Shown here piece after piece: positions 30,445 through 59,643 of a stretch of 64,000 nucleotides of DNA. Origin of the DNA: [Ruminococcus] lactaris ATCC 29176 (GTDB lineage Bacteria > Bacillota > Clostridia > Lachnospirales > Lachnospiraceae). Every line of letters begins with the position of its first letter. Position 1 is the first letter of the stretch. The notes below the pieces were generated by a model. That model was not told the DNA's origin. It did no database searches and saw nothing but the letters and a program-made list of their open reading frames with translations. The translations under genes were made by a program, and so were the position numbers. The stretch is from positions 2,108,001-2,172,000 of the forward strand of contig NZ_CP102292.1 of NCBI RefSeq assembly GCF_025152405.1, written 5' to 3'.

Positions 30445-30473
30445 TTCTGTCACCCTTTCTCACTTCATTTTTT

Positions 30474-30667
30474 GATACCAGGGTCAAAAGGTCTGACACC
30501 ACGTGTGCTCGCACACGAGTGGTAGAATGACCTTGTGACCCGCCCCAATATGAGCATAAAAGTGGGGCGTAAGCACCACGATATGCGAATGTTGGGTAGG
30601 ATTGTGGGAGCACGTAGTGCGTAACAATCCGTAGGTATCATAGTCGGGGGCTTTTGACCCCGACATC
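30474..30667 (+). mobile_element. 194-bp structured MITE-like repeat, copy 1
   Basis: One of three 194-bp copies. Ends are related inverted repeats (GATACCAGGGTCAAAAG against GATGTCGGGGTCAAAAG). Flanking ATTTTTT and ATTTTCT resemble a 7-bp target duplication with one mismatch. Internal stems: GGGTC/GACCC, AAGGTC/GACCTT, ACCAC/GTGGT, TGTGC/GCACA, then GTGG..CCAC, GGATTG/CAATCC holding GCAC-GTA-GTGC, and a final GTCGGGG/CCCCGAC. It lies between the zinc-ribbon gene and gatC on the opposite strand, and its first two bases complete the TGA stop of the zinc-ribbon gene. No convincing coding sequence. Confidence 0.85.
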
Positions 30668-45082: not shown

Positions 45083-45196
45083 AGAAAGAGAAATCAGTAA
45101 AAAATCTGCTTGAATTTCTGCAGAATCTGGTAGTAAAATACTCTGGTGTGCAGGCAGATATTTTAATTTGATAAAATTTATCGTCATGAATTTTTA

Positions 45197-45390
45197 GATG
45201 CCAGGGTCAAAAGGTCTAAGCCCACATGAGCTTGCTCACAGGTGGGTGAAAGACCTTAGGACCCGCCCCGATATGAGCATAAAAGTGGAATGATAATCCC
45301 ACGATATGCGAATATTGAGTAGGATTGTGGGAGTGCGTAGCACGGAGCAATCCGTAGGCATCAAAGTCGGGGGATTTTGACCCCGACATC
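45197..45390 (+). mobile_element. 194-bp structured MITE-like repeat, copy 2
   Basis: The ends GATGCCAGGGTCAAAAG and CTTTTGA-like right end (GATTTTGACCCCGACATC) form related inverted repeats, with an exact 7-bp flanking duplication ATTTTTA on both sides. Stems: GGGTC 45204-45208 with GACCC 45260-45264, AAGGTCT 45211-45217 with AGACCTT 45251-45257, CCCAC 45221-45225 with GTGGG 45242-45246, TGAGC 45227-45231 with GCTCA 45234-45238. Then a GTGG..CCCAC hairpin, a GGATTG/CAATCC stem containing GTGC-GTA-GCAC, and GTCGGGG/CCCCGAC. It lies in the 5' leader of tetR. Confidence 0.85.
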
Positions 45391-56401: not shown

Positions 56402-56520
56402 AATAAGCCTCCCTTTCATTTTGCGATACGACTACAGTATAACATACTTTTTCTTGCGGTTAAATCTTTTCTGTATCTTACCATATCCGCATTGCGTTAT
56501 CAATACAGATATTATTTTAT

Positions 56521-56714
56521 GATGCCAGGGTCAAAAGGTCTAAGCCCACATGAGCTTGCTCATAGGTGGGTGAAAGACCTTAGGACCCGCCCCGATATGA
56601 GCATAAAAGTGGGATGTTAATCCCACGATATGCGAATATTGGGTAGGATTGTGGGAGTGCGTAGCACGGAGCAATCCGTAGGCATCAAAGTCGGGGGCTT
56701 TTGACCCCGACATA
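56521..56714 (+). mobile_element. 194-bp structured MITE-like repeat, copy 3
   Basis: Almost identical to copy 2, apart from a few changes. ATTTTAT flanks it on both sides as a 7-bp target duplication. The hairpin GTGGGAT-GTTA-ATCCCAC is perfect here, where copy 2 has one mismatch and copy 1 has GC pairs instead. It lies between the divergent aldo/keto reductase and small alarmone synthetase genes, oriented toward the latter. Confidence 0.88.
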
Positions 56715-56824: not shown

Positions 56825-57421
56825 ATGACAAATGAACAATATCATACTTTGATCCATCCTTATACAGATGCCATGAACCTGATCCTTACCCGACTGGAGA
56901 TTTTAAATCACTGTGCCGCTGACAATGAGGATGTCCGGCCAATCCATGGAATCACCCACCGGATCAAGGAAAAAATAAGTATGGAAAATAAATTAAAAAA
57001 GAAACATTCTAACGGAAGTGTGCAGGATGCACGCACATTACTGAAAGATATTGCCGGTATCCGCGTTATCTGCTTTTTTGAACGCGATATTTATCAGCTT
57101 GCTGAATCATTAAAAAAGCAGACTGACCTGATCCTCGTCTGCGAAAAAGATTATATCCGACATCCAAAACCGAACGGTTACCGGAGCTATCATCTTGTAC
57201 TGGGAGTTCCTATTTATTCACTGGATGGCATGGAATACTATCCGGTGGAAATTCAGTTTCGCACCATTTCCATGGATTTCTGGGCTGCCATGGAACACCG
57301 GATCTGCTATAAATCCCAGCCCTTTGATGAACTCGAAATGAAAAGTGCTTTCCGGCAGTATGCAGAAATACTTGATGGGATTGAGAAATCCTTTGAAGTG
57401 TATAGTGAGAATTGTGGGTGA
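56825..57421 (+). CDS. small alarmone synthetase (RelA/SpoT domain)
   Basis: A 198-residue single-domain (p)ppGpp synthetase of the YjbM/YwaC type, without hydrolase or TGS/ACT domains. RelA/SpoT motifs are DIAGIRVICFF near residue 75, HPKPNGYRSYHLVLGVP near residue 117, and VEIQFRTISMDFWAAMEHRI near residue 140. AAGGGAG precedes the ATG. The last base of its stop codon TGA is the first base of the 310-bp element A. Why this gene sits next to an Rpn-family gene and two repeat families is unclear. Confidence 0.92.
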   Translation: MTNEQYHTLIHPYTDAMNLILTRLEILNHCAADNEDVRPIHGITHRIKEKISMENKLKKKHSNGSVQDARTLLKDIAGIRVICFFERDIYQLAESLKKQTDLILVCEKDYIRHPKPNGYRSYHLVLGVPIYSLDGMEYYPVEIQFRTISMDFWAAMEHRICYKSQPFDELEMKSAFRQYAEILDGIEKSFEVYSENCG

Positions 57422-57728
57422 AATTTGTATTTGTTGGGGTGATACGCTTAGAAGACATACAAATTCTTGGTGGCGAAGCGGACGCGGAAAGCAGGGATAT
57501 TCCTTCGCAGTGCAGGACCCGCTTTACCTCAGCCCGTTGACCGTTTGTAACTCGAAAGTGGAAATCTTCGTGCAATGGCACTCGATTTACTTTCTCTAAC
57601 AAACGCTGCAAAGTGTCTTCGGAACGCTCCCTGCTAATGCACCTGCTCAGGAACATCCTGCTTTCCGCTGACCATCTCGATAAGAAGTTTTTAGCTCCAC
57701 AGCGTATTCACTCAACAATACAAATTTC
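57421..57728 (-). mobile_element. 310-bp structured TIR element, copy A
   Basis: Bounded by inverted repeats AAATTTGTATTTGTTGGGG (left) and AAATTTGTATTGTTGAGTG (right, reversed). About 90% identical to copy C but in the opposite orientation, so A and C face each other across the Rpn-family gene. The minus-strand RNA contains the conserved core GCGTTCCGAAGACACTTTGC and the second core ACGGGCTGAGGTAAAGCG, and the outer arms GCGGAAAGCAG/CTGCTTTCCGC. The left end overlaps the stop codon of the alarmone synthetase. No coding sequence is credible. Confidence 0.8.
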
Positions 57729-57767
57729 AAAAGGGTTGATAGCCTTTCGGCTCTTTATTTCTTATTG

Positions 57768-58084
57768 AAATTTCGTATTTGTTGAAAGAAAATATCCTGA
57801 TGCGAGGAAAGTTTTCTGACTTGAAAAGCCTAATATCCACACTTGTTGTTGCGTGAGCAGTGCATTGACAAGGAGCGTTCCGAAGACACTTTGCCCAACT
57901 TGTTAAGGAACGTAAACAGGAGTGCCTCTGCACGAGTGTTTCCACATTCCTGTTACAAGTTGTCAACGGGCTGAGGTAAAGCGGATCCTGCACTGCGATG
58001 CAACAACAAGGGCGGATATGAACGCTCTTCTGTCAGAAACACTTCCTGCTGTCGCGATATTTTCACCCCAACAAATACAAATTT
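57768..58084 (+). mobile_element. 310-bp structured TIR element, copy B (diverged)
   Basis: Same orientation as copy C. TIRs are AAATTTCGTATTTGTTG and the reverse of CAACAAATACAAATTT. The two cores (57871-57893 and 57962-57983) are identical to those of A and C, but the outer arms are different: CTTGTTGTTGC (57842-57852) pairs perfectly with GCAACAACAAG (58000-58010). The inner pair is AACTTGT (57897-57903) with ACAAGTT (57955-57961), where C has CGTTTGT with ACAAACG. Confidence 0.8.
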
Positions 58085-58119
58085 TATACTTATTTCATAC
58101 AAACTTTAAACTCTTTTAA

Positions 58120-58148
58120 TTGATTTTTTTCTTACACTATCTTATACT
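58120..58148 (+). promoter_or_regulatory. promoter of the Rpn-family gene
   Basis: TTGATT (58120-58125), 17-base spacer, TATACT (58143-58148), about 150 bases before the likely start codon and just outside copy B. Confidence 0.6.
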
Positions 58149-58297
58149 CATCTCACATCAAAATCTCAGACAGATCCAATTCCCATTTTCTACGTCTGAT
58201 GTCCAGTATGGAGAGCATTTCATATTTCAAGACCATTTCGGTCAGAGATTTTCATTTTGATGATAACGATTATATTTTTATTAAGGAGGACTTGCCT

Positions 58298-59254
58298 ATG
58301 GGACAAGCAGATGTAAATGTTAATCTTTGGCTTAAGGATACGAAACGGTTCGCAGACCTGTTCAATGCCATTTTATTTCAGGGAAAAGCCGTGATCCTGC
58401 CGGAGAATCTTCACCCCAGCCCGGAGACAACCGCAGTCAGTCTTCAGGACGCTCAGGGGAAAAATATTGTAAAAAAGCAATACCGCGATATCATCATGAA
58501 CTGGCAGGATCAGGCTGTGCTGATGCTGCTGGCGGTGGAATCACAGACTGCCATTCATTACGCTGCACCGTTGAAAGTAATGCTCTATGACAGCATGGAA
58601 TATGCGGAACAGGTGCGGGTCAAATGGAAAGAACATCCACCCCGTCTTTCTTCGGCTGAATTTCTTTCCCGCTTTCAAAAAAATGATAAACTCATCCCGG
58701 TGATTACTTTGATCTTCTATTATGGGACAGAGGAATGGGATGGACCTTTGGAACTGCATCAGATGTTCGATCTTGGTACAGAAAAGAGCCATGCGGAACT
58801 GATGAAAAAGTATCTTCCCAATTATCACATTAACCTCGTCGATGTCAGAAGACTGAAAAATTTAGAATCTTTTCAAAGTGATTTACAAATCATCTTCGGT
58901 ATGCTACAATGTAGTCAGGATAAATACGCATTGCGTACATATTTGGCAAATCATAAAGACTATTTCCAAAAGCTGGATCTGGAGACTTATCATGCACTTG
59001 GAGCATTCTTAAATTCCCGGCAGCTTATGGAGATAAACGTAGAGAAGGAAGAAAAGGAGGAACTGGATATGTGTAAAGCACTGGAAGATATTTATAATGA
59101 TGGCGTTCAGGATGGTATGGAACGGGGAGAAGCAGCCCATAAAAAAGATGTCGCCTTTCAAATGCAAAAACTTGGTTATTCTTTAGATGCGATTGCAGCA
59201 GTACTGAGAGAACCTGTTGATGGAATTAGCAGGATACTGGCTGTAGTTGGATAA
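58298..59254 (+). CDS. Rpn family nuclease / putative transposase within the repeat island
   Basis: A 318-residue protein of the Rpn (YhgA-like) PD-(D/E)XK group. The pattern FADLFNAILFQGKAVILPE (about 15-33), DIIMNWQD, LLAVESQTAIHYAAPLKVMLYD (about 77-98) fits the family: an early acidic region, an ESQ (ExQ) active-site pair and Tyr-Asp. IPVITLIFYYGTEEWDGPLELHQM follows, as in other Rpn proteins. The C-terminal quarter is helical with a predicted small HTH-like end (YSLDAIAAVLREPVDGISRILAVV). GGAGG before ATG 58298 is preferred to the ATG at 58199. It lies between copies A/B and D/C of the 310-bp element. Confidence 0.8.
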   Translation: MGQADVNVNLWLKDTKRFADLFNAILFQGKAVILPENLHPSPETTAVSLQDAQGKNIVKKQYRDIIMNWQDQAVLMLLAVESQTAIHYAAPLKVMLYDSMEYAEQVRVKWKEHPPRLSSAEFLSRFQKNDKLIPVITLIFYYGTEEWDGPLELHQMFDLGTEKSHAELMKKYLPNYHINLVDVRRLKNLESFQSDLQIIFGMLQCSQDKYALRTYLANHKDYFQKLDLETYHALGAFLNSRQLMEINVEKEEKEELDMCKALEDIYNDGVQDGMERGEAAHKKDVAFQMQKLGYSLDAIAAVLREPVDGISRILAVVG

Positions 59255-59299
59255 ATTTTATGTTTGTTGGGGGAAAATATCCCAACAAACACGAAATTT
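59253..59299. mobile_element. 47-bp ends-only derivative of the 310-bp element (copy D)
   Basis: AAATTTTATGTTTGTTGGG and CCCAACAAACACGAAATTT face each other around GGAAAATAT, so it is essentially the two terminal repeats joined with no interior. It matches the ends of copy B (GTTG, AAAATATC). Its first base lies within the TAA stop codon of the Rpn-family gene. It may also work as a strong hairpin at the gene's 3' end. Confidence 0.7.
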
Positions 59300-59335
59300 C
59301 AAGAAGAAATAGAAAACCGGCTTTTTTTATCTTTT

Positions 59336-59643
59336 AAATTTTGTATTGTTGAGTGGATACGCTGTGGAGTCAGAAAAACTTCTTACTGCGACTGCCAGCG
59401 GAAAGCAGGGTGTTCCTAAGCAGGTGCATTAGCAGGAGCGTTCCGAAGACACTTTGCAGCGTTTGTTAGAGAAAGTAAATCGAGTGCCTTTGCACGAAGA
59501 TTTCCACTTTCGAGTTACAAACGGTCAACGGGCTGAGGTAAAGCGAGCCTGCACTGCGAAGGAATATCTCTGCTTTCCGCGTCCGATTCGCCACAAAGAA
59601 GCTTTCTGATTTACAAGCATCTCACCTCAACAACTACAAATTT
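59336..59643 (+). mobile_element. 310-bp structured TIR element, copy C
   Basis: TIRs AAATTTTGTATTGTTGAG and, reversed, AAATTTGTAGTTGTTGAGG. Outer arms GCGGAAAGCAG (59398-59408) and CTGCTTTCCGC (59570-59580) pair perfectly; inner arms CGTTTGT (59460-59466) and ACAAACG (59517-59523) pair; a GTGC/GCAC hairpin lies inside (about 59484-59495). Cores at 59435-59457 and 59524-59545 are unchanged among copies. Its right end overlaps the stop codon of purD. Confidence 0.82.

Follow-up and report, generated by a model that had tools for sequence, protein, structure and literature searches.

The stretch of DNA analysed here (the window) comprises 64,000 nucleotides of the [Ruminococcus] lactaris ATCC 29176 genome (NZ_CP102292.1, positions 2,108,001 to 2,172,000 of the forward strand), and near its right-hand end it carries two units of a paired-hairpin family for which we found no earlier description in the literature. 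An initial annotation, made from the letters alone, had placed here three copies of a solitary structured element of about 310 bp with inverted terminal repeats. The positions of these copies, A (57421-57728, reversed), B (57768-58084) and C (59336-59643), were borne out, as were the two invariant cores that they share, GGAGCGTTCCGAAGACACTTTGC and GTCAACGGGCTGAGGTAAAGCG, and the arms GCGGAAAGCAG/CTGCTTTCCGC in C and CTTGTTGTTGC/GCAACAACAAG in B are paired in the computed folds. The observation was right and the unit is bigger: the hairpins are indeed about 310 nt long, but the solo element is superseded by a twin-hairpin unit in which two long hairpins point outward from a spacer between them, usually over about 760 bp and over 664 bp in the first unit of the window.

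Unit 1 (57421-58084) has the order A(reverse)-spacer-B(forward). Its left half, hairpin A, is a class I hairpin of A-type on the minus strand, with a match at 57497-57653 (minus strand) to R1, a 156-position covariance model of the class I core built from 27 host and genus sequences; the stop codon (TG|A) of a RelA/SpoT-type gene takes its final base from the outer end of hairpin A. The spacer (57729-57767) is shortened here, compared with about 137 nt in most units, where it contains the palindrome GCCGGATGGCTAT...ATAGCCATCCGGC. The right half, hairpin B, is a class I hairpin of B-type on the plus strand (R1 core match 57850-58006, plus strand), and the unit is bounded by an outer inverted repeat of 22 bp, with AAATTTGTATTTGTTGGGGTGA at 57421-57442 (plus strand) and its perfect inverse at 58063-58084 (minus strand). 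An Rpn-family gene (58199-59254, plus strand; PF04754, 351 amino acids), probably a passenger, separates unit 1 from unit 2 (about 59253-59643). In the latter, the B half has probably shrunk to a 48-bp palindrome region (59253-59299, minus strand; judged by eye) that retains only the two ends of the hairpin, overlaps the Rpn stop codon and is tied to hairpin C by a spacer (59300-59335) matching the A-B spacer of unit 1. Hairpin C is of class I A-type on the plus strand (R1 core match 59413-59567, plus strand) and at its outer end adjoins the stop codon of purD (T|AA). The earlier view of A and C as the two ends of a composite element around the Rpn gene gives way to the twin-hairpin plan: A and C do not mirror each other as partners, C being the A-type half of a second unit.

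Searches of the 2.73-Mb host genome with C and with B revealed 34 hairpins of A-type and 32 of B-type that are complete or almost so; 30 of each type are paired, either as A reversed, spacer and B forward or as the mirror image. A full B is missing from four A-type hairpins: C itself, a copy that has a shortened B and neighbours an Rpn gene, a copy that retains just the spacer, and a copy interrupted by an insertion. Two B-type copies likewise have no full A. The outer ends read AAATTTGTA(T/G)TTGTTG, or near it, on both sides and are nearly identical across copies, so that terminal inverted repeats, a hallmark of miniature inverted-repeat transposable elements (MITEs), are present. Copies with these exact common ends are scattered over the genome, consistent with the mobile-type dispersal that had been suspected from three copies. 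The AAATTT ends are palindromic and beyond them no duplication was seen by eye, so a 6-bp target duplication would be indistinguishable from the ends themselves. Separately, an A-type hairpin at L082:400-701 is cut at its outer end by an insertion whose first open reading frame (ORF) is, by eye, UPF0236/ISLre2-like, and at L118:1398-1553 one arm has become the reverse complement of the core of the other arm, giving a near-perfect palindrome (by eye).

The hairpin folds of the window beat 100 of 100 dinucleotide shuffles, with z scores of -9.2 (C), -11.1 (B) and -7.4 (A). When 142 class I matches (123 distinct) were fitted to R1 (alignment A4), 97.5% of the pair cells were paired, as against 74.4% in shuffled controls and at most 45.1% when the sequences were slid. 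Both sides changed in 41 of 47 pairs among the 123 distinct sequences of this model-fitted alignment, and in 34 of 47 pairs in a MAFFT alignment of 27 sequences (A3). For class II, a second and unalike hairpin (model R2), alignment A5 was made with MAFFT and its structure derived from that same alignment; 92.3% of cells were paired versus 66.7% after shuffling, and 39 of 43 pairs changed on both sides. In neither class did any of 500 shuffles reach any of the five pairing measures. Profile matches below 36 bits and two duplicate loci had been excluded before the 32-row alignment A2, which was reduced to A3 by dropping four near-duplicate or own sequences (L074, L112, L129 and L131) and L118, in which one arm is replaced by a copy of the other, and by recutting L088; L222, with an internal deletion, was excluded before A5. 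Compensatory changes beyond both the shuffled and the slid controls thus support the initial proposal of selection on a folded single strand, and the covariation was retained as more copies were aligned.

The wobble pairs carry information on the strand that folds. On the outward strand G-U outnumbers A-C by 258:43 (A4), and by 51:4 among 31 sequences below 85% identity. On pairs predicted from both strands the ratios are 32:11 (A3), 40:17 (A5) and 129:23 (A4); removal of the single-strand-predicted pairs lowers the excess from 63:12 to 32:11 in A3 and from 100:25 to 40:17 in A5, leaving it smaller and still clear. Because both strands would be expected to count alike in a cruciform, this bias disfavours a cruciform and favours RNA or one strand of DNA. 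In the host, the forward strand folds better in 31 of 31 single A hairpins and in 21 of 31 single B hairpins. The conserved unpaired bases beside CC/GG in the MAFFT alignment read as tandem G-A in an internal loop, an arrangement usual in RNA.

Neither hairpin class reaches the gathering score of a known Rfam family, which agrees with the initial designation of the element as undescribed. At gathering score the window gave three RF01699 matches and a cobalamin riboswitch, none at the hairpins, and in E-value mode RF03476 (31.2 of 47 bits, 57705-57790) and RF00256 (18.7 of 55.4, 59254-59298), both far under gathering; in nine loci, RF03935 scored 29.3 of 100, again far under gathering, over a class II hairpin in L378. 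No intrinsic terminator (GC-rich stem plus T-tract) was called inside the two elements scanned, and a promoter consensus scan of the same two remained at chance level.

Most unit ends sit precisely where genes end. Among the 68 ends of 34 host units (a set that includes four units with one damaged half and omits three further remnants near 468, 1,933 and 2,426 kb), 44 lie within -12 to +10 nt of the stop codon of an ORF that has 150 codons or more. In 28 of these 44 the stop lies at +1/+2, the element's own A or AA completing it, and in 16 of the 34 units both ends meet a stop. Positions displaced 60-600 nt outward, which often fall inside genes and so control for chance and not for intergenic placement, meet a stop in 16 of 1,836 cases (0.9%). 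In the stretches fetched from relatives, a facing ORF (at least 90 codons) ends 20-180 nt beyond the class I core in 124 of 158 hairpins, and within 10-190 nt of class II hairpins in 36 of 43. The DegV gene end, compared across 30 genus genomes including the host, carries a class I hairpin in 3 and, immediately after the stop codon, one of class II in 8 (positions by eye), and a short hairpin or other long palindromes in several other relatives (by eye). Some unit ends face promoter regions, for example at L088, L098 and L100 (by eye). Beyond the DegV stop of L368, L387 and L388, a shared stretch ending GCGTTGTTTTCC... may represent a third class of long hairpin (by eye).

The host genus, judged from its relatives, is Mediterraneibacter, and R1 copies occur in 44 of its 58 genomes (host included) at 0 to at least 52 per genome, the high counts being lower bounds since the best 50-52 candidates per genome were scored. 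Across 295 genomes drawn from the order, where the best 9-10 candidates per genome were scored and zeros are accordingly less firm, R1 matched in the host alone and in 0 of 294 others. The class II hairpin, first seen beyond the DegV stop codon in relatives and later recognised as the partner that many class I hairpins had seemed to lack, gave R2 matches in 48 of the 58 genus genomes and none in the host; in the order, it matched in 12 of 295 genomes from nine other genera, with E-values from 1.6e-15 to 9.9e-4. By our count 53 of the 58 genus genomes contain at least one class; the five with neither are G011, G017, G023, G034 and G068, of which G011, G017 and G068 are 79-83% complete. No match was obtained in a scan of IMG/VR or in a plasmid search. 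Four faecal records labelled 'Bacteriophage sp.' (MT838801, MT839318, MT839411 and MT838007) have pieces of units at their ends and are most likely bacterial contigs broken at the repeat.

A fetch by core pattern, which places the relatives in Mediterraneibacter, yielded at least 120 stretches, 114 with a class I hairpin. The other six of the 120 (L204, L205, L210, L218, L251 and L281), among them Pacificimonas, Crocinitomicaceae and Microbacterium, give no class I profile match at E 1e-6 and look chance-like or very distant. In the 120 stretches, 126 class I hairpins have 700 nt of room, and 93 of them have a partner within 600 nt, divergent in all 93 cases; the partner is of class I in 68 and of class II in 25 (both members of a pair counted). 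The halves are modular, class I combining with class I or with class II, and this mixing of unalike hairpins within a single plan suggests that one recogniser serves both classes.

The same gene ends recur across species. Genes flanking host units also abut a hairpin in the sampled relatives in 11 of 53 cases, where a random draw from about 2,600 genes would by our estimate give about 1.6; the count rests on 124 abutting genes from 158 hairpins (153 distinct). At one gene the hairpins of two species are 97% identical and look like true orthologues. Among the named species (L203-L282) and the host, to which the identity comparison applies, host copies resemble one another (mean 89% over the A and B cores), whereas a hairpin at the same gene in another species shares 52-67% with the host copy there, no more than it shares with host copies elsewhere. 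A-like and B-like halves have swapped sides between species at one of the genes (by eye). This pattern is compatible with re-insertion at favoured ends as well as with homogenisation by recombination. The search for empty sites met nearest relatives that are about 93% identical in PurD. In 800 kb of G073 it found the ends of 12 orthologous or similar genes with no pair adjacent there, and across the DegV loci of 29 relatives the ABC-F neighbour was kept, within the 1,500 nt fetched, in one, whose gap holds a class II hairpin and other palindromes. At L086 the palindromic unit flanks would form one hairpin around AAATTT, 1 of 13 folded.

The spacers receive insertions of their own. At 10 of 20 loci scanned a Clostridiales-1 RNA (RF01699) is nested in the spacer, two of these barely above threshold. 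In the window this RNA lies at 56520-56687, 30473-30640 and 45196-45363, and it occurs also at L071, L072, L075, L076, L078, L084, L086, L092, L096 and L100. The copies in spacers end in GATGYC...GRCATC and are flanked by 7-8-bp target duplications such as TTTACTA, TCGTAAA and TTTAATAT (by eye), so that the Clostridiales-1 RNA itself looks like a mobile element. Two different IS630-type transposase genes (396 and 423 amino acids, DDE_3; L071:884-2074 and L072:912-2183) lie at the same joint beside nested Clostridiales-1; considered as cargo of the units, they were rejected and seem to belong to the Clostridiales-1 nest. Elsewhere, in L240, L262, L292, L302 and L306, two class I hairpins flank the same neighbouring gene pair, with a CPBP-type gene between them in L240 and L262, and hairpin variants swap sides between species. 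The CPBP-type protein (named by eye; 269-291 amino acids) was likewise discarded as cargo, being no transposase and turning up repeatedly at a single shared locus.

Six Rpn loci were found in the host, all beside units and each with a unit edge exactly at the stop codon. The same upstream sequence follows the unit edge at these loci, giving a unit-Rpn-unit block with fixed joints, one copy of which has a truncated downstream unit. No Rpn gene lies within 500 nt in 23 of the 34 units, and a tblastn search with the Rpn protein of the window returned nothing in the 120 core-pattern stretches, although a distant Rpn could escape it. The Rpn genes look like passengers.

On balance, we read the unit as probably a non-autonomous, structure-dependent mobile repeat of an old lineage that has settled at the 3' ends of genes. 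In the mechanism that we propose, a hypothetical mover, an enzyme acting in trans, would recognise the hairpins as single strands, either RNA or single-stranded DNA, and would copy the unit into gene 3' ends, where insertion is least harmful. There the element might take over from the intrinsic terminator, and any dispensable DNA separating the element from the stop codon would be lost. Old copies would stay at the same gene ends, and within a given genome recombination or fresh insertions would keep them alike, with Rpn genes and Clostridiales-1/IS630 insertions carried as passengers. A bolder version, which we advance tentatively and consider possible rather than probable, is that these repeats form a new kind of gene-end element, with several unalike twin-hairpin classes that are read as RNA, copied into stop-codon junctions by machinery recognising RNA or single-stranded DNA, and replacing terminators at many convergent gene pairs. 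If so, the exact T|AA and TG|A joints would mean that the element writes the last bases of host stop codons.

Several observations weigh against the mobile-repeat reading. No stop was met by 24 of the 68 ends, and 33 of the 126 class I hairpins had no partner found within 600 nt; 9 of these 33 belong to loci where a longer stretch, holding a gene or other DNA, lies between the two hairpins (L240, L262, L292 and L306 twice each, and L203; by eye). Plain insertion would predict a looser stop-to-stop fit than the one seen; a transposase, a clear empty site and a target duplication were not found; and the gene ends shared across species, with some hairpins 97% identical, fit old residents equally well.

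The main rival, which we hold to be a serious though clearly less probable explanation, is that the hairpins are a host-serving RNA, a 3'-end or terminator/insulator structure of convergent genes. A transcript crossing the spacer would end in the forward hairpin just before the facing stop codon, and the structure would block antisense read-through or protect the 3' end. The exact stop-to-stop placement, the facing ORFs that end near most hairpins of both classes (124/158 and 36/43), the forward-strand G-U bias, the conserved internal loop with tandem G-A, the gene ends held in common across species and the short DegV hairpin of several element-free relatives (by eye) are all in keeping with such a role. 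It sits poorly with match numbers ranging from 0 to at least 50 among species of one genus, with spacers that accept nested Clostridiales-1 and IS630-type insertions, with unit ends that face promoter regions (by eye) and with the two scanned elements, in which promoters and terminators did not exceed chance.

An ordinary MITE, derived from a standard DDE insertion sequence since lost from the host genome, would account for the inverted outer repeats and the dispersed non-coding copies, and we judge it improbable. Scanning the host for the end motif (up to 2 mismatches) gave 84 matches, 10 of them away from units as compared with 8 for the reversed control, and these 10 include no inward-facing pair a few kilobases apart, so no insertion sequence with these ends, and hence no autonomous parent, was seen in the host's own genome. 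DDE transposition would not be expected to need conserved hairpins with internal-loop motifs, and two unalike hairpin classes share one architecture here.

Less probable still is a REPIN-like origin, in which two inverted hairpins are moved as single-stranded DNA by a tyrosine (Y1/RAYT) transposase. The same plan of two repeats and a spacer in extragenic DNA is described in PMC3116915, and the compensatory changes and the single-strand asymmetry would suit it. The transposase, however, does not fit. In a PF01797 search of the 58 genus genomes the host gave one match, a 159-amino-acid Y1 protein followed by a TnpB-like one (IS605 type, by eye), and no Y1 protein of the kind with about 275 amino acids; G078 lacks a Y1 match despite 3 matches of class I and 38 of class II, whereas G011, G023, G034 and G068 have Y1 matches and hairpins of neither class. 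Lacking a phyletic fit in this search, Y1/RAYT was rejected as the mover, and the hairpins are about ten times longer than repetitive extragenic palindromic (REP) sequences. Many genus members do carry a single Y1_Tnp match in a frame of about 245-310 amino acids, RAYT-like in size and copy number, which the hairpins do not track.

Finally, the initial suggestion that the Rpn-family protein moves or uses the element is scarcely credible: the six loci with unit edges at Rpn stop codons, and the proposal, in PMC5350276, that Rpn/YhgA-like nucleases take part in gene acquisition, are outweighed by the 23 units with no Rpn nearby and the absence of a tblastn match to this Rpn in the 120 stretches, by the finding reported in the same paper that the nuclease RpnA shows no sign of sequence specificity, and by PMC10327210, which presents Rpn proteins as anti-phage toxin-antitoxins and, in a section heading, rpn genes as not encoding conventional transposases.

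With hundreds of matches, and with 53 of 58 genomes of a gut genus carrying one class or both, the family offers a large natural data set for a long fold under clear selection, and it raises the question of how a repeat comes to sit exactly at stop codons. Such repeats may also explain some contig breaks in draft genomes of the genus, and both hairpin classes could be proposed to Rfam.

Among known systems, the MITE-like repeats ERIC, Correia/NEMIS, RUP, BOX and bcr1 are dispersed, palindromic, intergenic and non-coding, with inverted ends. The element described here is much longer than these and than RU repeats, and is bipartite; compared with the five MITE-like families it also shows genus-wide covariation and conserved internal loops, and no parental insertion sequence was found in the host. 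Bidirectional intrinsic terminators of convergent genes occupy the same place, and a short hairpin stands at the DegV end of several element-free relatives (by eye), but the present element usually measures about 760 nt, is repeated with exact ends and has strong internal-loop motifs. Clostridiales-1 (RF01699) is likewise a structured repeat of the same genome, found near and inside units, yet no sequence relation to it was seen and it is nested with its own target duplications. Of 3,161 structured-RNA candidates from the human microbiome, 250 resemble our hairpins in being palindromic and were found on both strands (PMC8040213); in the main text of that paper, to which the comparison applies, the words Ruminococcus, Lachnospir- and mobile are absent. 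The closest likeness is in plan, to REPINs and bacterial interspersed mosaic elements (BIMEs), in which two inverted structured repeats also form an extragenic unit that is copied and shows compensatory changes; REPINs consist of two such repeats and a spacer in many copies with no gene of their own (PMC3116915) and persist long in genomes (PMC8049555). REPs measure 20-40 bp with a GTAG- or CGTC-type tag at one end (PMC3733652), whereas the hairpins here are about 310 nt long and end in AAATTTG, do not track a Y1 transposase, fall into two unalike classes that can be combined, and are placed at stop codons. The plan is REPIN-like, and it is on transposase and size that membership fails.

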